DNA of 64,000 nt, from the NCBI RefSeq assembly GCF_023008165.1, contig NZ_JAKQZA010000001.1, forward strand, positions 1 to 64,000. Direction: 5' to 3'. Positions 25,575 to 53,888 of the stretch are shown here, piece after piece. Made by a program: the position numbers and the translations under genes. Below the pieces are notes generated by a model that saw only the letters and a list, made by a program, of their open reading frames with translations, was not told the DNA's origin and made no database searches. How positions within the stretch are numbered: the first letter of the stretch is position 1; each line of letters opens with the position of its first letter. This stretch comes from Kordiimonas laminariae (GTDB taxonomy: Bacteria > Pseudomonadota > Alphaproteobacteria > Sphingomonadales > Kordiimonadaceae).

Positions 25575-25588
25575 TTTGCATTTTGGAA
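25575..25588. promoter_or_regulatory. Candidate activator site upstream of the first H-NOX promoter
   Basis: TTTGCATTTTGGAA. It belongs to the same motif family as 25607-25621 and the four sites at 36003-36086 (TTTGCA or TTGGCA half-sites with a complementary partner). It stands about 90 bases upstream of the sigma-54 -24 element, a typical enhancer distance. Confidence 0.45.
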
Positions 25589-25606
25589 AGGTTTTCGCAT
25601 TATGCT

Positions 25607-25621
25607 TTTGCAATATGCAAA
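25607..25621. promoter_or_regulatory. Best candidate enhancer site, TTTGCA-N3-TGCAAA
   Basis: TTTGCAATATGCAAA has perfect half-sites around a three-base centre, the architecture expected for a dimer of an NtrC-type activator. It is about 55 bases upstream of the sigma-54 -24 box. The activator encoded at 28562 is the obvious candidate binder. Confidence 0.55.
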
Positions 25622-25671
25622 GATAAAGGCGTGTTACCTCGGCTTTTAAGCGAAACCACCATCATAGTTGC

Positions 25672-25687
25672 TGGCACGTCTGTTGCA
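25672..25687 (+). promoter_or_regulatory. Sigma-54 promoter of the first H-NOX operon
   Basis: TGGCACGTCTGTTGCA is a perfect match to the consensus TGGCACG-N4-TTGCW, with GG and GC ten bases apart. Predicted start near 25698, giving a leader of about 40 bases to the H-NOX ATG. Confidence 0.85.
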
Positions 25688-25738
25688 ATTTGGGAAGCCT
25701 GACAAGGTTTCAATTTCTATTTTGCAAAGGTGATGATG

Positions 25739-26287
25739 ATGCGGGGCATTTTATTTACGGAATATCTGGATTTTGCGGCGAGCCTCACATCAGAAGCTGA
25801 TATTGAGAAAATCCTGTTTGACCTTAGTGATAAAATAAACGGCTCGTACACCTCTGTTGGTAACTACAGCTTTAAAGAATTTGCACATATTCATGTTGCA
25901 CTGTCTGAACATCTAAAACGAGACCCGAATGACATCGCCGAACGGTTTGGTAAAGTATTGCTTCACCGCTTCGCTGAGCTCTTTCCTCAGTATTTCGAAG
26001 GTGTTACTTCCGGCTTGGAATTCCTTGATCAGGTAGGCAGCCATATTCATGTGGAAGTAAAGAAACTATATCCTGACGCTCGCCCCCCAGAGATTATTCT
26101 AACGGAAGAAAAAGATGGAAAATACCAGTTAACATATAGATCACAGCGTCCGCTGGCTGCTGTTGCCCGAGGTTTGACAAGTGCCTGCCTTGCCTATTTC
26201 AAAAACGCGCACAAAATCATAAGTGAAACCTCACATCAAACACATGATGGTAATCATACAATCTTTGAGATACAAATACCTGTATGA
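25739..26287 (+). CDS. H-NOX heme nitric-oxide/oxygen sensor protein (first copy)
   Basis: 182 residues from the last of a run of start codons (GTG 25730, ATG 25733, 25736, 25739); the M-x-G-I opening (MRGILFTEYL) of the family fixes 25739, though any may be used. Fold features are YTSVGNYSFKE, the proximal heme His104 in HIHVEVKKLYPDA and the intact heme-propionate motif Y133-R-S135-Q-R137. Family members bind NO at ferrous heme and inhibit or activate a partner kinase. The partner hybrid kinase overlaps its stop by four bases, and a perfect sigma-54 promoter precedes it, so the sensor is probably under the pathway it controls. Confidence 0.93.
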   Translation: MRGILFTEYLDFAASLTSEADIEKILFDLSDKINGSYTSVGNYSFKEFAHIHVALSEHLKRDPNDIAERFGKVLLHRFAELFPQYFEGVTSGLEFLDQVGSHIHVEVKKLYPDARPPEIILTEEKDGKYQLTYRSQRPLAAVARGLTSACLAYFKNAHKIISETSHQTHDGNHTIFEIQIPV

Positions 26288-28557
26288 GCAGCTTGCCAGA
26301 AAATATAGATAAGCTTCGTTACGAACGTGAAAAACAAGCTCGTATGGAGGCTGAAAAGTTGCTTGAGGCAAAAAGCCTTGAGCTCTACAGGCTGAACGAA
26401 AGCTTGGCTCGAAGTAATGAAGGGCACCAGCAGCGGCTTCATATTTTAAATGAATTTGCCATTGCGGTTACCGAACTTAAAACCGTTGATGAGCTTGGCT
26501 GGTATGTGGCTAAAGAAGTTGTTGGTAAGCTTGGGTTCACCGACTGTGTATTCTATCTGTTTAATGAAGACAGTCAGTGCCTTGTTCAAACCGCTGCGAT
26601 TGCCGAGAAAAACCCTCAAGGGCACGAAATACTTAATCCTCTGGAAATTCCATTAGGCCAAGGTATTACTGGGAACGTTGCTCTTTCCGGTGAAGCGGAA
26701 GTTATCGGCGATGTAACAAACGATCCACGATACGTGCCAGATGTAATACCAGGCGGTTCTGAAATTTGTGTACCTATGATCCATGGTGACCGCCTTCTTG
26801 GTGTGATTGATTGCGAGCACCCAATCAAACATCATTTCAATGAGAATGATCTGGAAATTTTAGGAACGGTGGCATCATATGCCGCGGCTAAAATAGCTGA
26901 ACGTCAGGCCCAACAAGAAGTGGAAACAAGAGCAAATGAGCTGGAAGAAAAGGTAAAACAGCTCACCTCCCTAAAAGAAGAACTAGAGACCGCAAAAGAT
27001 AAAGCCGAAGAGCACAGCGCCCTTAAATCCAGATTTGTTGCAGCAATCAGCCACGAAATTCGTACGCCTCTAAGCGGAATATTAGGCAGCCTTGACCTGC
27101 TTGGAGATGAAGACCTGCCTAGCAGATCATCAGCTCTTGTGGATATGGCCAAAACCAGTGGCCAAACCCTTCACACACTTCTAAATGATGTTATTGATTT
27201 TGCCCGTACAGAAGCTGGCACATTGAAGCTTGAACCATCTGTATTTTCCGTGCGCGAATTGATTGGTTCCATTCAGTATTTTTGGCACCCGCATCTGGAA
27301 GCAAAAAATTGTACACTGGATATCTGTATCGATGATGCAGTTAAAGGCGCCTATTGGGGTGACCCCGCCAGAATACGGCAAATTATCAACAATTATATTT
27401 CAAACGCATTGAAATATTCGGAAACCGAAAAACTAGTACTTGCGGTAACGTGCGCAAATTCAGTGGCTGACGAAAGTAACCATTTAAAATTTCAACTACA
27501 GGATTTTGGTATCGGCCTTAGCATTGAGGACCAAGCTATTATCTTTGAAGAATTTTCACAAACACGTACACAAAGCAGATCAAACGTTGAAGGTGCAGGT
27601 CTTGGCCTGGCTATTTGCAGGCAACTGGCACGCCTTATGGCTGGTGAAGTGGGTGTAGAGAGCCAATTGGGCAAAGGAGCAACCTTCTGGTTAGCTGCTG
27701 ACTTTAAAGTGGCTACCGCCGCTGAGAGCCAACCGCAAACCGAAGAACGCATTCTTACAAACTTCAAAGAGAGGCTGAATAGAAGAGCCCGTGTGCTGGT
27801 GGCTGAAGATGTACCTACCAACCAAATCATCGTACGCACTGAATTAGAACGGTTTGGTTGCCGGGTTACTATTGCTAACAATGGTATCGAAGCCGTGGAG
27901 GCCGCGCGCAGGCACTCGTATGATATTATTTTCATGGATATTGCCATGCCGAGCATGGACGGCATTGAAGCGACGAAACGTATCATACAGATGCTGGGCA
28001 AAAAAAATGCGCCTCCAATATATGCGCTAACTGCCCACGGCATGGATGAAGACCGGCAGGATTTCCAATCTGCAGGGATGGTTGATCTGGTGACAAAGCC
28101 TTTCAATAGAAAACAGCTATATTACGCGATTGAAAGCGCAGTTGGTCTATCCGGCGATGCGGCAGAACCGATAACCGAGAATTTAGACCAAGAGAATGCT
28201 ATTCCTTTCTTCGAACAGGAAAGACTTGGAAGTTTACTGGAAACGCTGGATGAGGAAAGCTGTGGCTTATTGATTGATCAGAGCCTTAAAGATTTGAACA
28301 AAATTCTTGATGGTATGCGGGAAGGCCTTCAAAATCATGATCCGGATCATGTCGCTAAAATGGCTCACCAGCTCAAGAGCGTAAGCGGCACATTTGGCCT
28401 GCCGCGTATTCAGCATTTATCTGAACAGACACAAGTTCACTGGAAAAATGAACTGGTAACAGAAACATTAAATACTGGCCGCACCATTTGTGAGACCTTG
28501 CCTAAAGGCCTTCAGATGATTGAAGATACCGGCAAATTATATAGTAGCGGAGGATAG
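26284..28557 (+). CDS. Hybrid histidine kinase: coiled coil, GAF, HisKA-HATPase, receiver, HPt
   Basis: 757 residues, ATGA overlap with H-NOX. N-terminal coiled coil (1-50; REKQARMEAEKLLEAKSLEL) resembles that of the second H-NOX kinase. Then a GAF domain (about 60-205), a second coiled coil, HisKA with His257 (SHEIRTPLSG), an ATPase domain with NNYISNALKYS, DFGIGLS and GAGLGLAI, a receiver with Asp552 (FMDIAMPS), and an HPt domain with His695 (MAHQLKSVSGTFG). So it contains a full internal phosphorelay that could pass phosphate to the sigma-54 activator next door. Functionally analogous to PrsK, the PEP-CTERM-linked kinase, though PrsK is simpler. No membrane segment; input is cytosolic via H-NOX and GAF. 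Confidence 0.92.
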   Translation: MSSLPENIDKLRYEREKQARMEAEKLLEAKSLELYRLNESLARSNEGHQQRLHILNEFAIAVTELKTVDELGWYVAKEVVGKLGFTDCVFYLFNEDSQCLVQTAAIAEKNPQGHEILNPLEIPLGQGITGNVALSGEAEVIGDVTNDPRYVPDVIPGGSEICVPMIHGDRLLGVIDCEHPIKHHFNENDLEILGTVASYAAAKIAERQAQQEVETRANELEEKVKQLTSLKEELETAKDKAEEHSALKSRFVAAISHEIRTPLSGILGSLDLLGDEDLPSRSSALVDMAKTSGQTLHTLLNDVIDFARTEAGTLKLEPSVFSVRELIGSIQYFWHPHLEAKNCTLDICIDDAVKGAYWGDPARIRQIINNYISNALKYSETEKLVLAVTCANSVADESNHLKFQLQDFGIGLSIEDQAIIFEEFSQTRTQSRSNVEGAGLGLAICRQLARLMAGEVGVESQLGKGATFWLAADFKVATAAESQPQTEERILTNFKERLNRRARVLVAEDVPTNQIIVRTELERFGCRVTIANNGIEAVEAARRHSYDIIFMDIAMPSMDGIEATKRIIQMLGKKNAPPIYALTAHGMDEDRQDFQSAGMVDLVTKPFNRKQLYYAIESAVGLSGDAAEPITENLDQENAIPFFEQERLGSLLETLDEESCGLLIDQSLKDLNKILDGMREGLQNHDPDHVAKMAHQLKSVSGTFGLPRIQHLSEQTQVHWKNELVTETLNTGRTICETLPKGLQMIEDTGKLYSSGG

Positions 28558-28561
28558 CTTT

Positions 28562-29980
28562 ATGACGACCCTCGAAAGCAAGATATTACTTATCGAAGAT
28601 GTTCTCTCTATGGCTCTTCTATATGAAAAGCAGCTCAATTTGGCTGGCTTAGGCGTAAAGAGCGTTGAAACACTTGCCGCGGCCAGAGAAGCGATCAAAG
28701 AAGAAAACTATGATCTACTGCTTCTTGATCTCAACCTCCCAGACGGTGACGGGCTTAGTTTTCTTGAAGAAATTCAGGGAACGCCAAACGAAACGCCCGC
28801 AATTGTCATCACTGCGGATTCCTCGCTGAATAATGCGGTGCATGCAATGAAGCTAGGTGCGCTTGATTATCTGGTAAAACCCTTCAGCGAAAGCCGCTTG
28901 ATCACAACAGTGAACAACACGCTTGAAAGGGTAATGCTCCGGGAGCAAATTGATACACTTCGCCAAACACATCAAAGCGGCTCATTCCACGATTTCATTG
29001 GCTCCTCCAGCTCCATGCAGCGTGTTTACAGAACCATTGAAAACGTGGCTGCATCGAAGGCGACAGTATTTATCACGGGTGCGTCGGGCACAGGTAAAGA
29101 ACTGTGTGCTGAAGCCATACACAAAGCTGGACCTCGCGCGAAAAAGCCTTTTATTCCTGTGAATTGTGCTGCTATTCCCCATGATCTTTTGGAATCAGAA
29201 CTATTTGGCCACCTGAAAGGATCCTTCACTGGGGCGATTTCAAACCGCGAAGGTGCGGCGAGAGCCGCAGAAGGTGGTACTCTGTTTCTCGATGAAATGT
29301 GTGAGCTTGATTTAACCTTGCAGAAAAAGCTTCTGCGGTTTCTTCAAACCAGCATGGTTCACCCTGTTGGTGCTTCTCAGCCTGAACATGTAGATGTGCG
29401 CGTAATTTGCGCCACCAACCGAAATCCGATTGAGGAAGTTCGTGCCGGCAGGTTCAGAGAAGACCTATATTTCCGCCTTAATGTTGTACCGATTGCGTTG
29501 CCTCCACTAAACGCACGTGGTCAGGATGTGATTGAAATTGCTTCCAGCTTTCTGACTAAGTTCTCAGAAGAAGAAGGTAAACAATTCCAAGGGTTTGATG
29601 CAGGTGCACAAGCACTGCTTATGTCATACAACTGGCCAGGAAATGTAAGGGAGCTACAGAATACAATCCGCAACATGGCCGTTCTTCACGATGGTGAAGT
29701 GATTACTCAGGAAATGTTCCCACCGCTTGAAGGAGAGCTTGGTTCACTATCTCCGATTTCTCAGGAAATTCCGAACAGCATTCCTATGCAGCAACCTTCT
29801 CAGGCAATTAACCTGGAAGGCAATTCGCTGGCAACACTGGCGGAACTCGAAAAGAAAATCATCGAAGACCGAATTGAAGCTTTTAGCGGCAGTATCCCGA
29901 AAGCCGCGGACTCACTTGGTGTAAGCCCTTCCACGATCTACCGTAAAAAAGAAGATTGGCTGAAAAAAGAAGCTGTCTAA
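28562..29980 (+). CDS. NtrC-type sigma-54-dependent response regulator
   Basis: 472 residues from ATG 28562 behind GGAGG; an open frame to 28520 overlaps the kinase. Receiver with Asp56, AAA+ domain with Walker A GASGTGKE (about 172-179) and GSFTGA (about 220), the sigma-54 contact loop in which the usual GAFTGA has Ser in place of Ala, followed by the DEMCE/Walker B region. C-terminal Fis-type helix-turn-helix (IPKAADSLGVSPSTIYRK). This is the layout of PrsR, which activates PEP-CTERM genes with RpoN. The candidate targets are the sigma-54 promoters at 25672, 35948, 36147 and 43876. Its stop overlaps that of the convergent TPR gene. Confidence 0.93.
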   Translation: MTTLESKILLIEDVLSMALLYEKQLNLAGLGVKSVETLAAAREAIKEENYDLLLLDLNLPDGDGLSFLEEIQGTPNETPAIVITADSSLNNAVHAMKLGALDYLVKPFSESRLITTVNNTLERVMLREQIDTLRQTHQSGSFHDFIGSSSSMQRVYRTIENVAASKATVFITGASGTGKELCAEAIHKAGPRAKKPFIPVNCAAIPHDLLESELFGHLKGSFTGAISNREGAARAAEGGTLFLDEMCELDLTLQKKLLRFLQTSMVHPVGASQPEHVDVRVICATNRNPIEEVRAGRFREDLYFRLNVVPIALPPLNARGQDVIEIASSFLTKFSEEEGKQFQGFDAGAQALLMSYNWPGNVRELQNTIRNMAVLHDGEVITQEMFPPLEGELGSLSPISQEIPNSIPMQQPSQAINLEGNSLATLAELEKKIIEDRIEAFSGSIPKAADSLGVSPSTIYRKKEDWLKKEAV

Positions 29981-31977
29981 GACCCTTGCGCTTCAATTGC
30001 TTGCTGAATATCAGAGAGTGTTGCCTGATATTCAGTAACATTCGGCGCAAGCTTTACGGCTCTTTCTGCTAGTTCTAGCGCATGCTGCAAATCACCCTGA
30101 GTTTCATATAATTTGTATGCAAGGTTATTGAGCGCAATATGATTAGCCTCTTCTATTTCAAGAAGTTTTAGATATACCGCGAGAGCAAGATCATGATCTT
30201 TACTGTCCTCAGCTATTTGAGCAAGTAGCATCAACCGATCCCTTAACAGATTGCGCAGTTCTATTTCCGAAGACTTGCTATACTGATTTAGCTCAATATG
30301 AGTAAAAGCCCCCCACCAGTGCGCCAGCTGCTTGCCAGACAATTCCTTGCCGTTTTGATAAAAACCCAGCGCAAGCCTTGTTGCCTCAACTGTAAACTCA
30401 GGACGTAATTTAACGGCCGTCGCTAAATGAGCATATGTGGCTTCGAGATCATCAAAATAAGCGTATGCAATCGATAGAAGCTGGAAAGCACGTGCGTTAT
30501 TAGGGGCCCATTTAAGAACAGGCCTCAAAATCTGAATAGCTTTTGCCACTTTATCACTTTCGCCTGACATCAAAAGATACCGCGCTTCAACCAGGCGCCA
30601 GAATATCGCTTTTTCAGGACTGGCGTTTTTAATTGCCTCTACATGAAGGTTGGTTGTTTTACCGGCTTCCTCGACACAGGTTCTTACAAGCGCCAGATTA
30701 TCCACCTTCGCGTCAGATATAAAATTTTCGCAAATCTCTAAAGTCTCTGTTTTCTCACGTACATTCTCAAAGATAGCCCATTCAGGGCCAATGCCGGAAA
30801 GAATGGCTCCATTCTTTTCCGCGATTAGTGAGAGCTCATTCTCACCAATTGCCTGATATAATTTACTCTTTAGCTGAAAGATTGGCCCCATATCAGGCAG
30901 GATATCCCCTGCTCGCTCTAAAGCATTCAGTGTCGGCGCATATTCTATTTTTCCATTAGAGAGATTTTGAGCTAATTCACCCCAAACTGATGCAGCATAT
31001 TTGCCGTATCGTTTTTGAATGTCAGCCGGATCCATTTTGAAATCACATCTGGCTTCCAGCGCATAGGCTCCCAGACACTTTAATAACTGCACGTTTAATA
31101 ATGGTGCTGTATCCAGAATATTCTCAGGAAACCTGTAAACAAGCTTATGAAACATACCAACCCGCCAATATAGCTTGGCTAACAGGCTTGCCTGCTTGGC
31201 AGTTAAACCTTCCGAAGCGTTTTCAAGTGCTACAATCGCGTCAAGAGGCCTTCCTTCAGAAAGAAGTAAGGATGTTGCAATTGTTAAGTCTTCTCCTTCC
31301 AATGGCGTTAAAGACAGTTGTTCCAAAAACATGAAACCATCTGGTACTGAAGGAGCCAAAATACGGGATGCAAACGTTCGCCAATCACTGGGGATAGAAG
31401 GCACGATATCTTTAACATCAAACTGTACCGCCTCGCCTGATATTAATGAAGTTTCCACAATTGCCCACACAAGCGGCGAAGTCTCAACTGAATGTAATTC
31501 TTCAAGCGCATGAAGTATATTTTCTTCATCATCCAGTTTAATTGATGCTGCTAGCAAGATTAACGCAGCCTGTTGGCCTTCCGCTTTCCTGGCACTTCTC
31601 TGTGCCTCCAGCCATTTCTCACCACCAAGATACGCCACAGCTTGCGGCAAGTGGTAGCGGGGATCCCGCTTTAGGCTCCATCCAAGCTTATTCAGCATAA
31701 TCTCCTGCGCCAGATGCGCGTTATCCGGCAAGGGAACATGAAGGCGTGCTTCAGAAAGAAGAGTTATCGCGTGAATATCTGTTTTGGTCCGACAATTCTT
31801 ATTGGAGAAATACAGGGTCAACACTTCGATAGCAGAAGCATAATACCCTTGTGGCATAAATTGATCAGCCTCAGCCAGCCAGGCTTCACATTTACTTCTT
31901 TGATGTTGTTTAAAGCTGTAAAATCCGCCAGTCACCAATCCAGCGATCAACAATATCAGTACGATCAAACGTTTCAT
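29977..31977 (-). CDS. Tetratricopeptide-repeat protein, PrsT-like
   Basis: 666 residues, N-terminal signal anchor (MKRLIVLILLIAGLVTGGFY) followed by an extracytoplasmic region built from TPR-like helical pairs. Clear copies near the C-terminus include HDLALAVYLKLLEIEEANHI and LNNLAYKLYETQGDLQHALE. Large TPR proteins (PrsT) occur next to exosortase genes, probably handling polymer or substrate in the envelope. It ends with the stop overlapping the activator gene. First ATG overlaps the exosortase stop by four bases. Last gene of the leftward four-gene operon driven from the sigma-54 site at 35948. Confidence 0.83.
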   Translation of the reverse strand: MKRLIVLILLIAGLVTGGFYSFKQHQRSKCEAWLAEADQFMPQGYYASAIEVLTLYFSNKNCRTKTDIHAITLLSEARLHVPLPDNAHLAQEIMLNKLGWSLKRDPRYHLPQAVAYLGGEKWLEAQRSARKAEGQQAALILLAASIKLDDEENILHALEELHSVETSPLVWAIVETSLISGEAVQFDVKDIVPSIPSDWRTFASRILAPSVPDGFMFLEQLSLTPLEGEDLTIATSLLLSEGRPLDAIVALENASEGLTAKQASLLAKLYWRVGMFHKLVYRFPENILDTAPLLNVQLLKCLGAYALEARCDFKMDPADIQKRYGKYAASVWGELAQNLSNGKIEYAPTLNALERAGDILPDMGPIFQLKSKLYQAIGENELSLIAEKNGAILSGIGPEWAIFENVREKTETLEICENFISDAKVDNLALVRTCVEEAGKTTNLHVEAIKNASPEKAIFWRLVEARYLLMSGESDKVAKAIQILRPVLKWAPNNARAFQLLSIAYAYFDDLEATYAHLATAVKLRPEFTVEATRLALGFYQNGKELSGKQLAHWWGAFTHIELNQYSKSSEIELRNLLRDRLMLLAQIAEDSKDHDLALAVYLKLLEIEEANHIALNNLAYKLYETQGDLQHALELAERAVKLAPNVTEYQATLSDIQQAIEAQGS

Positions 31978-33329
31978 GATTGTTTCCCCAAACGAGATTG
32001 AATTTGTTCCAGAAATTGCAGAGCAACTGCCCTACGTGCAGACAACGGAATTTTTGGATCTTCCACAATTTGCAGACGTAATCGTCCTTTTTTCCCGGGT
32101 ATTTCAGCCACAATTTCAGCGACTGCCTGAACCTGTGCGTGGCTGCGCACCAACAGATGTTCAATACTGGCATCTATGTTTTCATCTTGAAATTCCACAT
32201 GAGAGACAATCCAGCCAAGCGCACGAAAACATATGGCTGACGAATGCTGCTGCGATTTATTGCTGTCTTCATGGAAAATGGCGGTCAGAATTAACTGTCT
32301 CTCGCTGGTCGGTGCATAAAATGTTTTACGGGATAGAAAATCAGCACTGATGATTTTTTGTTCTTCCGCTGAAATATCTGTCCGTTCACCGACCCATCCA
32401 GCAACGTAGTTTGGTATCTCGCTAATTGCTTCGATATTCGTTTTCTCAGTTACGCTTAAAGCTGTGTAACTCACACTGGATACAGTTAATGCAACAGCAA
32501 AGGCGGCAGCCTGTTTTGACCACAGTCTAATGTCCGGTAGTACCAATTCATGAAGCGGCAGGAAGATTAAAACAGGCAAAAGCCAAACAATCGGCATGAT
32601 AAACCAGCCCAGAAAATCATGGAAAGTATTCACCAAATCCTCCGGTGCCTGAAAATTCAAAATCAATAAAACAGACAAGCGAAGAAGGTTCACCCCAATA
32701 GCAATAGGCAAAGCTGAAGCAATGATACCCAGCTTACCTTTAAGGGAAATATCCCGAATGGAAGCACATACTAAACAGCCGAGGAATGCGGGGATAAACA
32801 GCAATGTACCGCTGCAATTTGTGTTGATAGTAACTGTTACTTCACCAGAAACCACCTGTGATCCATATCTGTACACTGGCAGGTCCAGAAGTTGGGCCAG
32901 TGTAACAAACATTTCTGCTTCAACAGTAGCAAGCCACACCCCCACAGATTGTTCCAAACCGTAAGGAACTGGAAGCATCAACACACCACACACTGTAACC
33001 CAGATAGTCTTTTTAAAAGATAGTTTAAAGCACTCTGATATGGTGAACACGATCAAAAACATGCCTGATAGATAAGCGAGTTTTTGAATATCCAGCGCGA
33101 TATGCAATAGAAATGCGAGAGCACTTAAGAGCAACAGCCATCCACGCCCGAAAACTCTTTCACCGGGCTTTCCTAAGGCAATTAATAAAATGCTAAACAT
33201 AGACAAAGCTATGATAGCCCAATGATCTGTCTTCAGGCTGGCTTCCAGCAGTGGTAGCAGCAGGTAAAAACCCACTGCAACCATTGCGGCTAAAGCACCA
33301 AGACGATATTTGCTTAAAATCAAGCACAT
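31974..33329 (-). CDS. Exosortase with fused EpsI-like C-terminal domain
   Basis: 451 residues. Multiple membrane segments in the first 270 residues hold the exosortase catalytic set: Cys172 in NTNCSGTLLFIP, Arg217 in GVNLLRLSV and His237 in FHDFLGWF. These enzymes cut PEP-CTERM proteins at the membrane and attach or release them for export with exopolysaccharide. The C-terminal extracytoplasmic part (about 300-451, with a His-x4-Cys-x3-GW segment) resembles EpsI, normally separate or fused in some exosortase types. Its start overlaps the end of its probable substrate gene by ten bases. Symbol withheld because the exosortase subtype cannot be assigned by eye. Confidence 0.9.
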   Translation of the reverse strand: MCLILSKYRLGALAAMVAVGFYLLLPLLEASLKTDHWAIIALSMFSILLIALGKPGERVFGRGWLLLLSALAFLLHIALDIQKLAYLSGMFLIVFTISECFKLSFKKTIWVTVCGVLMLPVPYGLEQSVGVWLATVEAEMFVTLAQLLDLPVYRYGSQVVSGEVTVTINTNCSGTLLFIPAFLGCLVCASIRDISLKGKLGIIASALPIAIGVNLLRLSVLLILNFQAPEDLVNTFHDFLGWFIMPIVWLLPVLIFLPLHELVLPDIRLWSKQAAAFAVALTVSSVSYTALSVTEKTNIEAISEIPNYVAGWVGERTDISAEEQKIISADFLSRKTFYAPTSERQLILTAIFHEDSNKSQQHSSAICFRALGWIVSHVEFQDENIDASIEHLLVRSHAQVQAVAEIVAEIPGKKGRLRLQIVEDPKIPLSARRAVALQFLEQIQSRLGKQS

Positions 33330-34180
33330 ACCGCCATCTCATCGGCTGTTTTCTTACGGCGAAGTTTTGCAAAACCAAGCAAGAAAAGTGGCCCTAAAAG
33401 GGCAGCTACAGGTCCTGGGAGCGGCACTGCGTTAGAAATCATTTTCTGAACATTCGCAGTACCAACATCAAGGGCTACAACTAAATCATTATAATCTTCA
33501 TCTCCACCGCCAAAAAGATCTTCCATGCCAACCAGAAGGTATGGGCTGTCAGGAGTGGCTAAAATCACAAAATGATCTATACCGTCGGGATTTAGTGATA
33601 TATCGGTGAAATAGGTGTTGGTGCCGCCATTCGCTCCATTTGCAATCAAAAACAGATTCAACTGACTATCAGCATCAAATGTTCCAAGGTCTACGAAATC
33701 TCCGGGCGCCAAAGGCGCATATGATGATCTATAAGTCGTTTCAGTAGGTTCTATATAGGAACTTGATGAACTAGCATCAGGGAAAACAAGAGCAGCATCG
33801 CCATTAAGCCCCTCACTGCTATCGCCAGTGTAAACGCCAAAGCTGTTTCGGTATCCGGCACCTTCGCCAACAAAATAAGCCCTTACGGAAGAGGCCTCGG
33901 TTAAATATAAATCCGACGGATCAAGTGCAATAGATGACAAATCGCCGATTGATTGGCTCTCCGTGAGCGTGTTGTTAACAATGGCTTGTAAATCAGGTAG
34001 TGCGTTCGTGCTAAAATCAGCAGCTTTTTCGTCAGACCCTGCAAGCATTACGTCACCGATAGGCTGTAACCCAAACGGCCTTGCATTCGATTGAACAGTA
34101 GAAACTGTTCCGGCGAAGCTTGCCCCGGACAGGAATGTCCCAAGCAACGTGGCTATAAGAATTTTGGAAGAATTCTTCAC
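33320..34180 (-). CDS. PEP-CTERM-type exosortase substrate with DUF4114-like domain
   Basis: 286 residues. N-terminal signal peptide (MKNSSKILIATLLGTFLSGA). Near residue 190-230, FVILATPDSPYLLVGMEDLF then GGGDEDYNDLVVALDVG is the DUF4114 core, a surface-protein module with an acidic, probably Ca-binding loop. The C-terminal sorting signal is VPLPG (about 252), hydrophobic stretch (PVAALLGPLFLLGFA) and basic KLRRKK, but a further nine residues (TADEMAVCA) follow, encoded where the gene overlaps the exosortase start. The sole obvious exosortase substrate in the window. Expressed from the sigma-54 leftward promoter. Confidence 0.87.
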   Translation of the reverse strand: MKNSSKILIATLLGTFLSGASFAGTVSTVQSNARPFGLQPIGDVMLAGSDEKAADFSTNALPDLQAIVNNTLTESQSIGDLSSIALDPSDLYLTEASSVRAYFVGEGAGYRNSFGVYTGDSSEGLNGDAALVFPDASSSSSYIEPTETTYRSSYAPLAPGDFVDLGTFDADSQLNLFLIANGANGGTNTYFTDISLNPDGIDHFVILATPDSPYLLVGMEDLFGGGDEDYNDLVVALDVGTANVQKMISNAVPLPGPVAALLGPLFLLGFAKLRRKKTADEMAVCA

Positions 34181-34182: not shown

Positions 34183-35910
34183 TTAGTCTCCTTTCAAAAA
34201 TTTAACTTGGATGAATGGCTGTAAGGCCCCCCCAGCAAGTTGGATGGTGGGAGCAATAGCGCGCACAAACTGGTTCCAGCCTTCAATCCAGTTATCAGGC
34301 ACATAAACAATGTCATCAGGCATAAGCTCAAGATCAGGAACCTTGCCCTTCAGGATGTGATCCGCATTCACTAGAATAAGCTGCCCTTCAATGGCGGAGT
34401 GTGTGCGGATAATGCGAACCTGGCTCATTAGGGCTGCCGATTTAACTGGCCCACCCACTTGTGTAAGAGCCTTAAGAAGGGTCATTGGTTCATTGGAAAA
34501 TGGAACAGCGCCAGCCCGTACAACAGCCCCCATTACGAAGGCTTTATTATCTCGGGCACTGGGTACAACGAGTGTATCACCCGCCCTTAGCGTAATATTG
34601 TGCTCTGCCTTACCCTCCATCAAAAGCGCCTTCAGGTCCACGGCTGCAATATCACCATCACGCCATAGCCTTGCGCCCCTAAGATATGCAGCTTCTGATA
34701 GTCCGCGCCCCAAGCTCACGGCCTGCATCAGGTTAGTCGGACCATCAAGATAAATCACCCCAGGGTTATTAAACTGCCCCAACAGATAAACTGGGCGGCT
34801 TTTGTGGGATGCCATGTTCACCACAACCCATGGATTGCGGAATTGTTTGGCAAAACCTGCCTTAAGAACGGTTTGAATTTCTTTAAGGCTCCGCCCTGCT
34901 ACGTTCACATTCTCAAGGAAAGGAAGTTGAATAAAGCCATCACCATCTACCTGTACAAGCAGATCATCCAACCCCTCTTCACCAAAAACATTAATACTAA
35001 GGGCATCACCCGAACCAACACGGTAAACCTGATCTTCAAATTCTGAAGCTTCCACATCAATGGCTACAGGCTCTATTTCAACAAGCGCGGGATCTATACG
35101 GTCTCCGTAGGCACGGATATCTTTTTCGTATGCGGTGTCTGCTTCATTAAACGGGCGTGTAGCTAATCTCTCGCTGCAAGCTGCAAGAAAAACAAAAATA
35201 ATACACAGCGCGAGAGGCTTTACATATTTTGGAACTTTCCGAGCTACTTTCTTAAAGATAAAGAGGCATGTCAGGCCAATAATTGCGATATCATAGCGCC
35301 ATGAATGCTTGTGAAGATAATCCAGTTCCGCTTCAAACCGTGTGCTCCAATCATCTACAACATGCTCAGCACCAGCGTTATCAAAAATGCAAACCTGACC
35401 AAGGCTTGTAAGCCCCGGAAGCACATTCAACCGCCGTGTAAAACCTGGAATTTTACCTTCCAGTTCCTCCTGTAAACTCTTTGCAATGGGACGAGGCCCT
35501 ACCAGAGCCATCTCACCTTTAAGAACGTTAAAGAGTTGGGGTAATTCATCAATCTTCAAGTCACGCAGAATTTTACCAATACCAGTGACCATTGGATCAT
35601 CTTTACTAACCTGCCTTGCACGGGACAGATCTTTATCAGCCCCCACACTCATGGTTCTAATTTTATAGGCTGTGAATGTCTTACCCTTAAACCCAGGCCT
35701 ACTCTGTTTATATATAAAGGGGCCGCGCGAATTGAGTTTCACGGCAACAAATAAAACCAAAAACAAAGGAGATAAGAGAAGCAACGACAGGCCAGCTATA
35801 CACCGCTGAATAGCATACCAAACATTATATGGCTGAGAAGAACGCGCCCAATCGTGCTGCTTCCACTTCTGAATTACATCGGCTTTAAAAAATGGAGCTT
35901 GTTGTGTCAT
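34183..35910 (-). CDS. Fused initiating sugar transferase and Wza-type lipoprotein export protein
   Basis: 575 residues in one uninterrupted frame. Residues of about 1-225 are a polyprenyl-phosphate sugar-1-phosphate transferase (WcaJ/PglC-like: membrane helix, TAYKIRTMSVGADKDL, KIDELPQLFNVLKGEMALVGPRP), which starts repeat-unit assembly. Residues of about 230-245 form a hydrophobic segment ending LAAC with lipobox Cys245. Residues of about 280-575 are a polysaccharide export protein with SLBB-type repeats (YRVGSGDALSINVFGEEGLD, VYLLGQFNNPGVI), the Wza outer-membrane channel. No in-frame ATG, GTG or TTG lies right before the lipobox, so this is a true fusion unless a distant start is used. 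LspA cleavage could release the two halves. Confidence 0.9.
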   Translation of the reverse strand: MTQQAPFFKADVIQKWKQHDWARSSQPYNVWYAIQRCIAGLSLLLLSPLFLVLFVAVKLNSRGPFIYKQSRPGFKGKTFTAYKIRTMSVGADKDLSRARQVSKDDPMVTGIGKILRDLKIDELPQLFNVLKGEMALVGPRPIAKSLQEELEGKIPGFTRRLNVLPGLTSLGQVCIFDNAGAEHVVDDWSTRFEAELDYLHKHSWRYDIAIIGLTCLFIFKKVARKVPKYVKPLALCIIFVFLAACSERLATRPFNEADTAYEKDIRAYGDRIDPALVEIEPVAIDVEASEFEDQVYRVGSGDALSINVFGEEGLDDLLVQVDGDGFIQLPFLENVNVAGRSLKEIQTVLKAGFAKQFRNPWVVVNMASHKSRPVYLLGQFNNPGVIYLDGPTNLMQAVSLGRGLSEAAYLRGARLWRDGDIAAVDLKALLMEGKAEHNITLRAGDTLVVPSARDNKAFVMGAVVRAGAVPFSNEPMTLLKALTQVGGPVKSAALMSQVRIIRTHSAIEGQLILVNADHILKGKVPDLELMPDDIVYVPDNWIEGWNQFVRAIAPTIQLAGGALQPFIQVKFLKGD

Positions 35911-35947: not shown

Positions 35948-35963
35948 CGCAACCTTCGTGCCA
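35948..35963 (-). promoter_or_regulatory. Sigma-54 promoter of the leftward exosortase operon
   Basis: Reverse strand reads TGGCACGAAGGTTGCG, matching the -24/-12 consensus with correct spacing. Predicted start near 35937, about 27 bases before the ATG at 35910. Drives sugar transferase/Wza, PEP-CTERM, exosortase and TPR genes. Confidence 0.85.
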
Positions 35964-43391: not shown

Positions 43392-43395
43392 GCTA

Positions 43396-43860
43396 ATGAT
43401 GAATATAGACAAAAAAACCAAAGTACTTGCAGTTGCTTCCGGTGGTGGTCACTGGGTTCAAATGCTAAGGCTACGGCCTGCTTTCAGGGATTGTGATGTT
43501 ACATATGTAACGGTTAATCCTGGGTCAAAATCAGATGTGAATGGCTGCAAATTTTATTCCGTAACAGACGGAAACAGAGACACCAAGTTCACTTTGATCA
43601 TGATGGCACTGAAGCTTCTTTATATCACGCTTATAACCCGCCCAAATGTGGTTATCTCCACTGGTGCAGCGCACGGATACTTTGCTTGCCGCTTCGGTAA
43701 ACTAATCGGCGCTAAAACACTGTTTATTGATAGTGTTGCGAATGCAGAAGAAATGTCGCTGTCTGCCAAACTGGTATCTTCTCACGCGAACAAAGTTTTT
43801 TCGCAGTGGCCCAAAGTAGCAAGAAAGGCGGGCGTGGAATTCCACGGTAGCGTCCTCTGA
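43396..43860 (+). CDS. Alg14/PssD-like glycosyltransferase membrane subunit
   Basis: 154 residues, start behind AAGGAG. VLAVASGGGHWVQMLRLRPA and NVVISTGAAHGYFACRFGKL match Alg14, the acceptor-binding subunit of two-part glucosamine or glucuronosyl transferases (PssD of rhizobia). A hydrophobic segment near residues 70-82 (ALKLLYITLITRP) provides the membrane anchor. Its partner Alg13-like catalytic subunit follows at 43933, but a terminator and promoter separate them. Confidence 0.85.
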   Translation: MMNIDKKTKVLAVASGGGHWVQMLRLRPAFRDCDVTYVTVNPGSKSDVNGCKFYSVTDGNRDTKFTLIMMALKLLYITLITRPNVVISTGAAHGYFACRFGKLIGAKTLFIDSVANAEEMSLSAKLVSSHANKVFSQWPKVARKAGVEFHGSVL

Positions 43861-43875: not shown

Positions 43876-43891
43876 TGGCACAAGCATTGCT
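43876..43891 (+). promoter_or_regulatory. Internal sigma-54 promoter before the Alg13-like gene
   Basis: TGGCACAAGCATTGCT: GG and GC ten bases apart, perfect -24/-12 pattern. Predicted start near 43902, inside the loop of the following hairpin. Confidence 0.8.
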
Positions 43892-43932: not shown

Positions 43933-44433
43933 ATGATTTTCGCCACCGTAGGAACCCAGCTCCCATTCGACAGGCTCGTGGAAACGTTGGATAAACTCCA
44001 TAAAAATCAATCTATTAACAAATGCTTTGCTCAAATAGGACCTCAAGGAAAAAGGCCGGAAAGCATTGATTTTTCAGCTACTCTTACCCCTTTGCAATTT
44101 GCAAAGCATATCGCAGACTGCAAAGTTATCGTTTCGCATGCTGGTATGGGTACGATCCTTACAGCGATGCGTTACGGCAAACCAATTATCATCATGCCTC
44201 GCCTCGCTAAATATGGTGAACACCGTAATGATCACCAATTGGCCACTGTCGCTAATCTACGCGACCGTGCCGGCATCCATGTCGCTCAGGATGAAACCAG
44301 CCTCATGGAAAAGCTCCTCCATATCAGCTCTCTCAAAGCCAGTAGATGTGCTTCTTCTTGTGCGGAGCCAAAGTTAATCAGCGCAATTTCGAACTTCATC
44401 AACAAAGACGAGCAGGAGCTGGAATATGTTTAA
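43933..44433 (+). CDS. Alg13/PssE-like glycosyltransferase catalytic subunit
   Basis: 166 residues. Starts MIFATVGTQLPFDRLVETLD and has CKVIVSHAGMGTILTAMRYG then KPIIIMPRLAKYGEHRNDHQ, the donor-binding C-terminal half of the GT28 family used by Alg13/PssE. With the Alg14-like protein at 43396 it forms one heteromeric enzyme. ATG sits behind a hairpin-hidden AGGAG site. Overlaps the next gene by eight bases. Confidence 0.87.
   Translation: MIFATVGTQLPFDRLVETLDKLHKNQSINKCFAQIGPQGKRPESIDFSATLTPLQFAKHIADCKVIVSHAGMGTILTAMRYGKPIIIMPRLAKYGEHRNDHQLATVANLRDRAGIHVAQDETSLMEKLLHISSLKASRCASSCAEPKLISAISNFINKDEQELEYV
44091..44105. promoter_or_regulatory. Palindrome of the enhancer type inside the Alg13-like gene
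   Basis: TTTGCAATTTGCAAA has the same perfect half-sites and spacing as 25607-25621. It lies 200 bp downstream of the internal sigma-54 promoter. Enhancers can act from downstream, but the bases also encode PLQFAK, so chance is possible. Confidence 0.3.
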
Positions 44434-45292
44434 CTCAGTCTCAACGCCTGTGTGCAGCATCATTACGCCAGCCTACAATGAAGCCAATGTTATCGGAAAA
44501 ACGCTTCAGTCGCTTCTGAAAGATGCTCGCCCAAATGAATTTGAAATCATCATCATATGTAACGGCTGCACCGATAACACCGCAAATATTGCAAATGAGT
44601 ATGCACCAGATGCTCAGATCATCACCACTGATATTGCTTCAAAATCAAAAGCTTTGAATTTGGGTATTGAGGCAGCTTCAACCTATCCACTTGTTTTTCT
44701 GGATGCAGACATCAAAACAACCGCGCCCGCTGTGCGCGCTATGGTGCACAGATTAAATTGGTCTGACGCGTTTTTAGCCTACGGCACAGCAAAGTTCCGC
44801 ACCGAAAATGCAAGCTGGGCTGTAAGGGCATTCTATAAAGCCTGGTATCTGAACCCCTATTTTGACAAACAAAAAATGGGCGGCTTTTTTGCAGTAAGTA
44901 AATCAGGTTTAGAACGACTTCAAGAAATCCCAGAGACACTGAATGACGATGAGTTTGTACGTAGGCGCCTGATCATCAATTCTACTTGGGTGGAAAACGC
45001 TCCATACCACGTTGAGCCTCCAAGGGATCTAACCAACCTAATCAAGGTTCGGAGCCGCGTTTACCGAGGCAATAAACTGCTTGAAGCTGATATGGAGCCG
45101 CTCGGCGGACAGAAACGTAAATCGAACGCCTACCTGTTCGCAAAACGCCTTTTCCTTAAACCCGGAAACTGGGTAGGCGCTGCTGTTTTTGCTTTCACAG
45201 CGCTCGCTGCACATGCCCGCAATTATATTGCTTCTCCTGATAGCAACTCCTGGGAAAGCGATGTAAGCGCCCGTCAGCTATTGAATAAATAG
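44426..45292 (+). CDS. Family 2 glycosyltransferase
   Basis: 288 residues. CSIITPAYNEANVIGKTLQS, IIICNGCTDNTANIANEY and FLDADIK (DXD) define GT2. Adds a sugar to the repeat unit; acceptor unknown. A hydrophobic C-terminal segment (WVGAAVFAFTALAAHA) may bind the membrane. Starts eight bases before the Alg13-like stop. Confidence 0.87.
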   Translation: MFNSVSTPVCSIITPAYNEANVIGKTLQSLLKDARPNEFEIIIICNGCTDNTANIANEYAPDAQIITTDIASKSKALNLGIEAASTYPLVFLDADIKTTAPAVRAMVHRLNWSDAFLAYGTAKFRTENASWAVRAFYKAWYLNPYFDKQKMGGFFAVSKSGLERLQEIPETLNDDEFVRRRLIINSTWVENAPYHVEPPRDLTNLIKVRSRVYRGNKLLEADMEPLGGQKRKSNAYLFAKRLFLKPGNWVGAAVFAFTALAAHARNYIASPDSNSWESDVSARQLLNK

Positions 45293-49668: not shown

Positions 49669-49735
49669 CTGTAGAACTCTGCCATTGGTGGCAAACTTCA
49701 ATCAAGTTCGGAATGAACCACGATTGGAGAGCACG

Positions 49736-50278: not shown

Positions 50279-50287
50279 GAGGCACCG

Positions 50288-51616
50288 ATGGATATCCAAA
50301 TATTAGAAAGCAGAATTGCCAGAGAAAAAGCCGCGAGGATACAGGCTGAAAGCTTGCTTGAGCAAAAGAGTTATGAACTTTACCAAACCAATAAAGAGCT
50401 ATCCCAAACAGCATATAACCTGCAGGAACAAAGCCAGCAAATTGAAACCATTTTAGAACATACCATTGCGGCTATTTTCATGGTTGATCAGCACGGTATC
50501 ATTATCCGTGCCAACGAACACAGCCGTAAACTGTTTGGAACGGAAGGTGCAACAACGGGCCATCCTTTAGCTCCGCTTTTTGAAGGAGATCACAGAGCCA
50601 CAGTTGAATACCTAACCCAGAAGGGCGGCGAAAGTGATGAACTATTCGACCTTCATGGACTTAAAACAGACGGCACACCATTTCCTATTGAAGCTGCTGT
50701 TTCAAAAATTGAAGTTGCTGACGGCTTTAAAACCGTTTGGATTTGCCGTGACCTAAGCAGCCGCATGAAAGCAGAGAAACGCCGCCGTAAACTTGAACAG
50801 GAATTAAGCCAAGCCCAAAAGATGGAAGCGCTTGGTACGCTTGCCAGCGGCATTGCCCACGAGATCAACACCCCTATTCAGTTTGTACGTGACAATATCC
50901 ATTTCTTGCAGGATAGCTTCGAGGATCTTGAAAGCCTTATTTCTGAGTACCGCAAGGCGATCAATTCCCTCGAGGCCCCCAATAAAGCTGAAATTCTCGA
51001 AAAGCTGAAAGATGCTGAAGAAGATGCTGATCTTCAGTTTCTTCAGGAAGAACTACCTTCTTGTGGCGAACAGTCCCTCGAAGGCATGGAACGTATCGGT
51101 ACTATTGTTTCTGCTATCAAAGAATTTTCCCATCCCGGGCAAAGTGCTACTGCGGATATCGACTTAAACAAAGCGATTGAAACCACCGCTACTGTTACTC
51201 ACAACCAGTGGAAATATGTAGCAGACCTTAATCTGGACCTTGATCCAAACCTACCCCATATCAAAGGTAACGCCGGTGATATTAATCAGGTGATGTTGAA
51301 CCTTATCGTAAACGCCGCACACGCTATTGAAGAACAAAAACAATCGTCTTCCGGTGCTATCAACATATCAACCCGTTCAAGTGCTTCTGCGGTTCATCTT
51401 GAAATCACTGATACGGGCTGCGGCATTCCGGAAAAATATCTTGAACGTATCTATGATCCGTTCTTCACAACCAAAGAAGTTGGGAAAGGAACAGGCCAAG
51501 GCCTTGCGATCACTTATAAAATCATCACTCAGCGTATGGGCGGCAGTATTGAAGTAGAGACCGAAGCCGGTATTGGTACTTGTTTCAAAATCACTCTGCC
51601 CCTTCATGCTCAATAG
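50288..51616 (+). CDS. PAS histidine kinase linked to H-NOX
   Basis: 442 residues, nine bases after the H-NOX stop. N-terminal coiled coil (REKAARIQAESLLEQKSYEL) resembles that of the first H-NOX kinase. PAS domain (about 55-165; IFMVDQHGIIIRANEHSRKL), phospho-acceptor His191 (GIAHEINTPIQF), ATPase region with VNAAHAIEE, DTGCGIP and GTGQGLAITYKI. No membrane segment. Comparable to HnoK, which H-NOX inhibits when NO is bound. It should phosphorylate the two following regulators. Confidence 0.92.
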   Translation: MDIQILESRIAREKAARIQAESLLEQKSYELYQTNKELSQTAYNLQEQSQQIETILEHTIAAIFMVDQHGIIIRANEHSRKLFGTEGATTGHPLAPLFEGDHRATVEYLTQKGGESDELFDLHGLKTDGTPFPIEAAVSKIEVADGFKTVWICRDLSSRMKAEKRRRKLEQELSQAQKMEALGTLASGIAHEINTPIQFVRDNIHFLQDSFEDLESLISEYRKAINSLEAPNKAEILEKLKDAEEDADLQFLQEELPSCGEQSLEGMERIGTIVSAIKEFSHPGQSATADIDLNKAIETTATVTHNQWKYVADLNLDLDPNLPHIKGNAGDINQVMLNLIVNAAHAIEEQKQSSSGAINISTRSSASAVHLEITDTGCGIPEKYLERIYDPFFTTKEVGKGTGQGLAITYKIITQRMGGSIEVETEAGIGTCFKITLPLHAQ

Positions 51617-51630
51617 ATAGGAGGCCAGCG

Positions 51631-52707
51631 ATGAAACCAAGCATCTTATTTGTTGATGATGAACGCGATGTTCTAAGGGGGCTTCGTAGAGCTCTAAGAG
51701 GCAAGCGCAAGGACTGGGATATGAGATTTGTGGAAAGCGCACAAGAAGCCATGATCGCTATGTCAGAAACGCCAGCAAACATTATTGTTTCCGATATGCG
51801 CATGCCAGATGTGGATGGTGCCGGATTAATGGAAAGCCTTGCTGAAAACTGGCCGTTCACTTGCCGTTTTATTCTTTCCGGGCAAGCCGCAGATCATGCT
51901 GTTATTAAAGCGGTTGGTATCACCCACCAGTTCCTTGCGAAGCCGTTTGACAGCCAGAAACTAATTGAACTACTTGAGGAACAAATTCCTCTTTTCGAAA
52001 CAGAACAATCTTCGCGGCCACTTGCCATTGAAGCTTTACCAACACCGGATAGCACCGCTGAGAAAATTAACCGGATCTTTGAGCAGCCAGATTTTGATGC
52101 TAACGAACTGGCCGAAATAATTGGTGATGATCTGGCATTATCTGCCAAGCTGCTGCAGCTTTCAAATTCGGCCTATTTTGGTAACGGGCATACAACCTTG
52201 CTTCCTGGCGATGCTGTCAGAACACTGGGTAGAGAGGTTCTGACAACCCTTAAAGACCAAACTCGTTTTATGGAGCCAGCAAGTGCTACCTGCCCTAACT
52301 ACAAAGAATTAAACGACCTTCTTCATATGGCCGGGGAATATGCCCGTATGGCTGATGCATACTGCCATAACTTTCCGGAGCATGAGTTAGACCCAGCTCT
52401 CCTCAGGCAGCTTGCCAAATTCCTCCCTTTGGGCAGAGTTTTAGGCATTACATCAGGTGCCAAATCTTATCTGGATGAAACCCTCTGTATCAACTTCGCA
52501 AATCTGTGGGGATTTCCACAGGAAATCGTTTCGGGATTAAAGGAAATCTGGACCAACAATATCTCAACTGATGAGGCGGCGGTAGCTGCCGCCATTGGGC
52601 AGTTCTTCCAACACGAAGGTGTACCAGCCGGCCAACAAAATGCAGCAATCGCGCAGTTTATTGAACGTCTTCAAAACCTGTCTATTCAAGAGGAGAAAGC
52701 AGCATGA
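51631..52707 (+). CDS. Receiver-HDOD response regulator
   Basis: 358 residues from ATG 51631 behind GGAGG. Receiver with ILFVDDER, IVSDMRMPDVDG (acceptor Asp) and FLAKPFD, then an HDOD domain (about 145-330; LAEIIGDDLALSAKLLQLSN then SAYFGNGHTT). HDOD proteins bind signalling complexes rather than acting as enzymes. Overlaps the next gene by four bases. Output partner unknown. Confidence 0.9.
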   Translation: MKPSILFVDDERDVLRGLRRALRGKRKDWDMRFVESAQEAMIAMSETPANIIVSDMRMPDVDGAGLMESLAENWPFTCRFILSGQAADHAVIKAVGITHQFLAKPFDSQKLIELLEEQIPLFETEQSSRPLAIEALPTPDSTAEKINRIFEQPDFDANELAEIIGDDLALSAKLLQLSNSAYFGNGHTTLLPGDAVRTLGREVLTTLKDQTRFMEPASATCPNYKELNDLLHMAGEYARMADAYCHNFPEHELDPALLRQLAKFLPLGRVLGITSGAKSYLDETLCINFANLWGFPQEIVSGLKEIWTNNISTDEAAVAAAIGQFFQHEGVPAGQQNAAIAQFIERLQNLSIQEEKAA

Positions 52708-53888
52708 CTAAAAAAATACTTTTTGTTGATGATAGCCTACAACTTCTCTCTGCAATCAGACGTCGGCTTAGAAAGGAAATCAACCTTTCCACAGCAGCCA
52801 GCGGCCAGGAAGCGCTCGACCTTCTTAAAGAAGAGGGACCCTTTGCTGTTCTTGTAACAGATCAAAATATGCCAGGAATGAACGGTTTAGAGCTCCTGAA
52901 GGCAGCTAAAGAAATCGCGCCGGACATGCAGCGTATTATGATGACAGGCCAAGCGGATGAAGAAACATCCCAACAGGCTGTAAATGATGGACATGTTTTT
53001 AAAATACTTTCAAAACCATGCTCACCAGAAAATGTACTCACCGCTGTTCGCAGCGCGCTAAAAAGATTTGAAAGCAAGGTTAATGAACGTACTTCAGCAG
53101 AAGCAACCTTGCTTGAGGGCCTTACTCTTATGAGTGAAGTTATCGCCTTTAAAAGTGGCAGCAACGCTGGTGCTGTTCCATACACCCGAGCATGGGCAAA
53201 GCAACTTGCCCCATACATCGAAGATATTAATCCGTTTGAACTTGAATGTGCTGTTATTCTATCTGGCCTTGGGAAGCTGTCTTTGCCCGAAGAATTGCAA
53301 AGCAAAATTGAAGCTTCAGAGCAACTCACAGATGAAGAATATCGTCTTGTTGAAAAAGCGACAAGTTCAGCCAACCATGTGCTTGATAAAACACCAATGT
53401 TCAATAATGTGGCAGATGCCATCCAGTATCAAAATAAGGGTTTTGATGGATCGGGTTGGCCTAATGATGATGTTTGGGGTAATTCAATCCCGAAAATGGC
53501 ACGTATCCTCAAAATTCTGAATGATCTTAGTGCCCATGCAGTTGACGCAAATGGCAACTTTTCGCTCCATAAATCATTTGGTGAATTAAAACGAAATATC
53601 GGTGCATATGACCCTCAGCTGCTTGAACAGTTTGAACACATCCTCATTCATGAAAAGCACCAACAAGGAGAGCCTCAAGCTCATGCAGGAACGACAGTAG
53701 AAGTAACTGACCTTGTGGAAGATGATATTATCGAAGAGGATATCCGCACTAGATACGGCTCACTCGTTCTAACAGCAGGAACAGTATTAACCCCTCATCT
53801 GCTTGGTAAAATTAAACAAACCAATGACAATATTGGTCTAAACTCACCAATACAGATACTTAGACGAGGTGTTAAAGCAGCCGCATAA
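52704..53888 (+). CDS. Receiver with degenerate HD-GYP domain
   Basis: 394 residues. Receiver with ILFVDDSL, VLVTDQNMPGMNG and ILSKPC. The output part aligns with HD-GYP phosphodiesterases, but the metal pair HD is replaced: LLHDIGK is ILSGLGK (about residue 190), and HHExxDGSGYP is QYQNKGFDGSGWP. It should be inactive against cyclic-di-GMP, as is HnoD of the Shewanella H-NOX network, which acts as a regulator of an EAL enzyme. A final domain of about 60 residues is a small Gly/Thr/Leu-rich extension. Confidence 0.88.
   Translation: MTKKILFVDDSLQLLSAIRRRLRKEINLSTAASGQEALDLLKEEGPFAVLVTDQNMPGMNGLELLKAAKEIAPDMQRIMMTGQADEETSQQAVNDGHVFKILSKPCSPENVLTAVRSALKRFESKVNERTSAEATLLEGLTLMSEVIAFKSGSNAGAVPYTRAWAKQLAPYIEDINPFELECAVILSGLGKLSLPEELQSKIEASEQLTDEEYRLVEKATSSANHVLDKTPMFNNVADAIQYQNKGFDGSGWPNDDVWGNSIPKMARILKILNDLSAHAVDANGNFSLHKSFGELKRNIGAYDPQLLEQFEHILIHEKHQQGEPQAHAGTTVEVTDLVEDDIIEEDIRTRYGSLVLTAGTVLTPHLLGKIKQTNDNIGLNSPIQILRRGVKAAA

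Follow-up and report, generated by a model that had tools for sequence, protein, structure and literature searches.

The first 64,000 nucleotides of contig NZ_JAKQZA010000001.1 of Kordiimonas laminariae (assembly GCF_023008165.1; hereafter the window) contain an exopolysaccharide cluster with its own exosortase, flanked by operons for two H-NOX heme sensors, and the locus raises the question of whether gas sensing and polymer production are parts of one regulatory system. A preliminary description had proposed that they are, under PrsR-like control. The reading favored here, with a probability of about 0.7, is that the cluster and the first H-NOX operon (H-NOX1) constitute a self-contained nitric oxide (NO) switch for an exosortase-linked exopolysaccharide, in which an H-NOX protein, a hybrid histidine kinase and a LuxO-like activator act on sigma-54 promoters. 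Gene calls were taken from the listing of open reading frames (ORFs) and from Pfam and NCBIfam scans, and the genes and gene order that had been named earlier were borne out (Table 1).

The linkage between H-NOX and exosortase genes was examined in 118 related genomes, 29 of which belong to the family of the window, the Kordiimonadaceae (Alphaproteobacteria). H-NOX genes were found in 22 of the relatives, 11 of them in this family, and an exosortase match was found in 93. The exosortase of the window is of an atypical, low-scoring type (59-77 bits) that was present in 11 of the 29 family genomes, and an H-NOX gene lay 4.5-6.7 kb from it in ten of these, the exception being G009. One family genome (G020) had an H-NOX gene without the atypical exosortase and 17 had neither (a match of 19.5 bits in G010, under the cut-off, was scored as absent), giving a Fisher p of 6e-6 that is uncorrected for kinship. 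The search that the preliminary description called for therefore did find H-NOX genes near exosortases in other genomes. Outside the family, no H-NOX genome showed the linkage, neither the 11 from the order nor the 17 others in a sample of 385 from the class, and only seven of those 17 had an exosortase match (G044 was counted in both sets, and the short contigs of some genomes without linkage, such as G040, G058 and G253, may have caused a link to be missed). A wide H-NOX/exosortase linkage was thus not found; the linkage is real, and it looks like a trait of the Kordiimonadaceae.

Within the family, the H-NOX1 operon and the exosortase/polysaccharide cluster are one conserved locus. The H-NOX1, hybrid kinase and LuxO-like genes (forward strand) are followed by the TPR, exosortase, DUF4114 and transferase/export fusion genes (reverse strand), and then by the run from the pyruvyl transferase to the REC-Hpt gene (forward strand). 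When the window proteins were searched against the loci of the relatives, this order was recovered at 80-100% identity in G013, a near-copy of the window, and at 30-75% identity in G003, G005, G006, G017, G018 and, as far as the contig reaches, G022. The activator gene precedes H-NOX in G019, and in G025 it is divergent from an H-NOX gene that is nearer to the second H-NOX of the window (H-NOX2). A profile scan of genome contigs with the DUF4114 alignment gave 57 loci, the first nine of which were these clusters; the H-NOX1, kinase and LuxO-like genes were present in seven of the nine, and not in L061 (from G009) or L062. Named strains with the cluster are Kordiimonas aquimaris JCM 16665 and Eilatimonas milleporae DSM 25217. 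In G020, the H-NOX, kinase and LuxO-like genes (the last as a two-piece match) stand together at locus L060, in a 20-kb stretch that has no polysaccharide cluster.

The regulator encoded after the hybrid kinase is of NtrC type, as had been stated, and the position then assigned to it, 28562, is an internal ATG of its ORF. It is not PrsR-like, however. The protein has the full-length REC-AAA-HTH (helix-turn-helix) domain order and scored 554.7 bits against LuxO (NCBIfam NF041946) compared with 352.9 bits against PrsR (TIGR02915); the curated cut-offs, 800 and 502.6 bits respectively, were both missed, and the protein is named 'LuxO-like' because it falls under the former. The last 54 residues, which comprise the HTH, scored 43.9 bits for LuxO, 17.1 for the next family and 12.3 for PrsR, and the solved chain that best matched the regulator is a LuxO. 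In a tree of LuxO relatives, the cluster-type regulators of 11 genomes were grouped by a branch supported at 100/99, albeit with a long-branch warning for G029x, G033g, G019c and G009c. An identity as PrsR was rejected on the whole-protein and HTH scores, and the boxes fit the LuxO consensus.

The LuxO site, as given in the available text of two reports, is TTGCAWWWTGCAA (PMC10162802, PMC11443567), and sites of this form (TTGCAW3TGCAA) were found ahead of sigma-54 promoters of the locus. Perfect copies number two in the genome (3.65 Mb in 27 contigs), both in the cluster; with up to one mismatch there are 19 in the genome, four of them in the cluster, and six for a reversed-pattern control. 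The 11 genomes with the cluster have 24 perfect boxes between them, and locus coordinates place 14 of these inside it. With G013 left out of all shuffle and synonymous-redraw tests, boxes with up to one mismatch were found before H-NOX (15 sites in seven of nine regions; shuffle mean 0.18) and in the divergent region between the fusion and pyruvyl transferase genes (16 sites in eight of ten regions; shuffle mean 0.25). Relative to the predicted starts, their centers lie at -84 to -127 for H-NOX and at -89 to -148 for the divergent pair; for qrr genes, the available text of PMC11443567 gives LuxO sites at roughly -89 to -119 from the start.

Four sigma-54-type sites were found, before the H-NOX, exosortase, polysaccharide and internal transcripts. 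The perfect pattern, TGGCAYRNNNNTTGCW, occurs nine times in the genome, twice in the cluster, and transcription starts were predicted from the sites by the 12-nt rule. Sites with up to one mismatch were present before H-NOX in seven of nine regions (shuffle mean 0.27 sites), on both strands of the fusion-gene/pyruvyl-transferase gap in 10 of 10 (0.31), and in the Alg14-like/Alg13-like gap in eight of eight (0.02). The two H-NOX regions without a site are those of altered gene order, G019 and G025, and in G019 a perfect site precedes the LuxO-like gene. In nine of 11 genomes the transcript of the polysaccharide operon is predicted to begin 1 nt ahead of the ATG, the distance being 2 nt in G019 and about 4 nt in G025, so this sigma-54 transcript may be nearly leaderless. 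Upstream of the Alg14/Alg13 promoter a box was found in none of eight regions. The Alg13-like gene itself contains a perfect box, centered at +195 to +215 from the predicted start in either of two registers that differ by 19 bp. It was present in seven of eight genomes, whereas 3000 synonymous-codon redraws gave 0.36 on average and never more than 3; it is also present in G013 and in G009, which was left out of the redraw and whose box is known by position. The Alg13-internal box would be a natural case of a predicted intragenic downstream enhancer.

A scan of the whole genome with PF07700 identified two H-NOX genes only, both in the window and both above the cut-off of 25.5 bits. In alignments, H-NOX1 retains the proximal histidine and the YxSxR motif, and has valine at the position of Tyr140 in an O2-binding homologue. 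We take the proximal histidine, YxSxR and distal tyrosine to have their usual roles, a missing distal tyrosine being expected of NO sensors; the valine suggests that H-NOX1 senses NO rather than O2. The HisKA histidine of the hybrid kinase is present in all 11 kinases of the alignment, and the receiver and Hpt domains were identified by eye, for the kinase of the window alone.

From the kinase histidine and the H-NOX1 and exosortase residues that have been kept, a relay with feedback is proposed, running from H-NOX1 through the kinase, its Hpt domain and the LuxO-like activator to sigma-54. H-NOX1 would bind heme and NO, and NO binding would set the activity of the kinase encoded next to it. 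Phosphate would then pass through the receiver and Hpt domains of the kinase to the activator, and the phosphorylated activator, bound to the TTGCA-type palindromes, would act with sigma-54 polymerase to fire four promoters: that of its own operon (feedback), that of the exosortase/anchor-protein/export operon, that of the polysaccharide operon, and the internal promoter, which would be served by the Alg13-internal box. The shared DNA switch sites suggest that NO could act as an on or off signal for the polymer in these marine bacteria. In Vibrio fischeri, according to the available part of the report, HahK promotes transcription of syp by way of SypG unless it is inhibited by HnoX and NO (PMC12369376), and by this analogy NO should lower polymer here, NO-bound H-NOX1 shutting the kinase off and stopping production; this sign is a guess. 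A fuller version of the proposal is put forward tentatively, at somewhat less than even odds: a one-locus gas switch that combines H-NOX, a separate LuxO relative of the quorum-sensing type and an exosortase-anchored polymer, with a downstream enhancer in coding sequence and a nearly leaderless sigma-54 transcript.

Several observations weigh against the proposed switch. G009 (assembly 76% complete) keeps the cluster and the boxes with no H-NOX detected, and at L061 the place of the H-NOX/kinase pair is taken by two kinases, one with a GAF domain and one hybrid, and by an Hpt protein. The kinase match of G025 stops ahead of Hpt and its divergent region has no box, while the boxes of G019 are two-mismatch forms only, with none inside the Alg13-like gene. 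The sign may also differ from that proposed, because the available text on Vibrio harveyi reports that NO enhances its biofilm (PMC3759921). Within the window alone, the sigma-54 pattern with one mismatch was found seven times against 4.5 expected, a count reached by 15 of 100 shuffles, and the LuxO pattern with up to two mismatches 15 times against 15.9; the argument is drawn from where the sites lie, from their conservation and from the forms with no mismatch or one. Finally, a second LuxO relative (572-618 bits), which could use the same boxes, was present in 19 of 19 genomes in a survey restricted to the genus and to an E-value limit of 1e-120 that hides weaker LuxO relatives, and a box with up to one mismatch lies upstream of it in three of 15 genomes.

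The polymer promoters might be driven mainly by this genus-wide relative, the H-NOX operon being one input or a neighbor that shares its boxes. The persistence of boxes in G009 without a local activator or a detected H-NOX would fit such an arrangement. However, the boxes precede the H-NOX operon itself, and the LuxO type of 535-555 bits, which forms a separate clade, was found in eight of the 19 genus genomes, every one of them cluster-bearing; these include G009, where the gene is on another contig amid unrelated genes. Control by the second relative is thus considered unlikely. In the K. laminariae genome, this relative (599 bits; L003, 1474-2925 of contig C23) is beside malic-enzyme/PTA and PilZ genes.

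It is slightly less probable still that the LuxO-like protein controls the cluster in response to something other than NO at H-NOX1, or with the GAF domain as the main input of the kinase. The kinase does have such a domain, and other kinases replace the H-NOX pair in G009; against this, the histidine and YxSxR positions of H-NOX1 and its lack of a distal tyrosine fit an NO sensor, given the roles that we presume for them. The genome also has another likely NO response, as a NorR-type NO-reductase regulator (L010; contig C11:300858-301982) scored 521 bits against a curated cut-off of 476. Viral contigs searched with H-NOX1 gave no match.

The second H-NOX operon (48626-53888) is a neighbor outside the conserved unit. 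Of the two-sided bracketing that had been described, the H-NOX operon beside the exosortase cluster is conserved, and the second operon is present at this site only in the window and G013, so the bracket is local; among the nine other genomes with the cluster, there is just one H-NOX in seven, a second 1.5 Mb off in G025 and none in G009. H-NOX2 keeps the proximal histidine, and its YxSxR motif reads YKSRC, with cysteine at the arginine position, as in G013. In Shewanella, H-NOX control runs through cyclic-di-GMP-type regulators, and the REC-HDOD and degenerate REC-HD-GYP genes of the second operon could act on the polymer in the same way; the presence of the operon at this site in only two of the genomes makes this very improbable. 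No sigma-54-type or LuxO-type match was found near the operon in the window scan. A terminator-like hairpin after the REC-Hpt gene (48546-48572) would part H-NOX2 from the polysaccharide operon, although such matches are hardly above chance (15 compared with 10.2).

The proposed switch most resembles HnoX-HahK-SypF-SypG/syp of V. fischeri, which likewise has an H-NOX with a hybrid kinase, an Hpt relay, a LuxO-family sigma-54 activator, a polysaccharide locus and related enhancer boxes. In the available text of those reports, the H-NOX/kinase operon is apart from the syp locus and the Hpt is in SypF (PMC12369376, PMC10162802), whereas here the sensor, a kinase with its own Hpt, the activator, its targets, the exosortase and its presumed substrate are in one locus. 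The H-NOX/HqsK-LuxU-LuxO phosphorelay of V. harveyi also carries NO sensing into LuxO; as described in the available part of that paper, it does so through a shared quorum-sensing pathway with no dedicated activator or polysaccharide targets adjoining (PMC3759921). A Qrr-like RNA at the extra sigma-54 site was rejected because no Rfam family matched positions 24000-55000 (E up to 0.5); Qrr families are included in this negative, a difference from the V. harveyi circuit. The scv/syp-like loci of aquatic bacteria, including two alphaproteobacterial genera, are polysaccharide loci with their own sigma-54 regulator (PMC8941931), and 'Kordiimonas' is absent from that paper.

The PrsK/PrsR system has sigma-54-type sites ahead of exosortase-associated polymer genes, and the available text of PMC1569441 and PMC9850573 describes PEP-CTERM genes under sigma-54 control; here the kinase and regulator families are different, the boxes are of LuxO type and the putative sorting signal is VPLP rather than PEP. 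That the cluster is a classical PrsK/PrsR system next to an unrelated H-NOX operon is the least credible alternative, given the PrsR score of the regulator, the failure of all seven other NtrC-type proteins or stretches scanned to reach the PrsR cut-off (for L009 PrsR was the best family, at 359 bits) and the separate XrtA locus on another contig.

The preliminary description thus finds support where it joined heme gas sensing to sigma-54 control of an exosortase-type polymer, from the conserved synteny and the conserved promoter- and enhancer-like sites, and none as to the PrsR-like type of regulator. It also called the coupling unusual; H-NOX, a LuxO/SypG-type activator and polysaccharide are already joined in V. 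fischeri (PMC12369376, available text), and the logic is less new than was supposed. The linkage of H-NOX with an exosortase was not found in print, in literature that misses most subscription journals. The available part of the 2006 paper that defined PrsK/PrsR calls the PrsK stimulus obscure (PMC1569441); the locus described here would give an exosortase-type exopolysaccharide a definite, testable input, NO, together with DNA targets. It also suggests that Alphaproteobacteria have the H-NOX to LuxO/SypG logic of vibrios too, here with every part at a single locus.

Table 1. Features of the Kordiimonas laminariae locus (window positions)
Feature	Position	Strand	Basis or remark
Two LuxO-type boxes, 25576-25588 (one mismatch) and 25608-25620 (perfect)	25576..25620	+	centers -116 and -84 from predicted H-NOX1 start
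Perfect sigma-54-type site before H-NOX1 operon	25672..25687	+	predicted start ~25698
H-NOX1 heme sensor	25730..26287	+	PF07700 97.8 bits and alignments; likely start an ATG few codons in
Hybrid histidine kinase, GAF-HisKA-HATPase-REC-Hpt	26284..28557	+	domain scan, alignment
LuxO-like sigma-54 activator	28520..29980	+	profile scores, HTH, tree
TPR protein, weakly PrsT-like	29977..31977	-	domain and NCBIfam scans
Atypical exosortase, EpsI-like C-terminal domain	31974..33329	-	scans, aligned residues
DUF4114 protein, putatively secreted, VPLPGP-transmembrane-basic C-terminus, presumed exosortase substrate	33320..34180	-	scan and reading by eye
Sugar-phosphate transferase (Bac_transf) fused to Poly_export/SLBB export domains	34183..35910	-	scans
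Sigma-54-type site (one mismatch), exosortase operon	35948..35963	-	predicted start ~35937
LuxO-type box (one mismatch), common to two divergent promoters	36029..36041		-98 and -138
Sigma-54-type site (one mismatch), polysaccharide operon	36147..36162	+	predicted start 36173, 1 nt before ATG
Pyruvyl transferase, Wzx, FrhB-like, Wzy, two glycosyltransferases, Alg14-like	36174..43860	+	scans, locus comparison
Perfect sigma-54-type site, Alg14/Alg13 gap	43876..43891	+	predicted start 43902
Alg13-like and GT2 genes	43933..45292	+	scans, locus comparison
Perfect LuxO-type box inside Alg13-like gene	44092..44104	+	+196 from predicted start
Wzz-like	45302-47365	+	near operon end
REC and REC-Hpt proteins	47349-48516	+	operon end
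REC-PAS	48626-49630	+	second H-NOX operon
H-NOX2	49685-50278	+	PF07700 122.8 bits
PAS kinase	50288-51616	+	second H-NOX operon
REC-HDOD	51580-52707	+	second H-NOX operon
REC-HD-GYP, degenerate	52704-53888	+	HD and HD-GYP motif residues altered

The exosortase of the window scored 72.5 bits with PF09721 (cut-off 25.7) and its Cys, Arg and His residues are kept in 11 of 11 aligned rows. The nearest named type is XrtD (TIGR04152), for which its 80.6 bits fall far short of the cut-off of 400. In the genome scan it was one of two exosortases, at 76.9 bits; the other, at 192.8 bits, belongs to an XrtA/PEP-CTERM locus of its own on contig C24, where XrtA scores 258.3 bits against a cut-off of 208. 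The C-terminus of the DUF4114 protein, which has no NCBIfam match, was read by eye as VPLPGP, a hydrophobic stretch and RRKK. The putative sorting signal of the supposed PEP-CTERM protein is of VPLPxP rather than PEP type, and the DUF4114 protein is presumed to be the substrate on which the exosortase would act. Relatives of this protein (39-54% identity over the best segments) were found on Verrucomicrobia, Planctomycetes, Chlorobium, Lentisphaerae and Desulfoluna contigs (L070-L111), and at L083, titled Planctomicrobium, a GT2-GT1-Alg14-Alg13-GT2-Wzz run adjoins the relative.

The Wzx/Wzy operon spans 36174-45292. The REC and REC-Hpt genes close the polysaccharide operon in relatives too, and the aspartate and histidine of REC-Hpt are kept in eight aligned rows, so the relay may have a side branch or a sink in this protein. 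The fusion of transferase and export domains in one ORF, the topology of which is puzzling, is also matched in relatives, and is in two pieces in G009.

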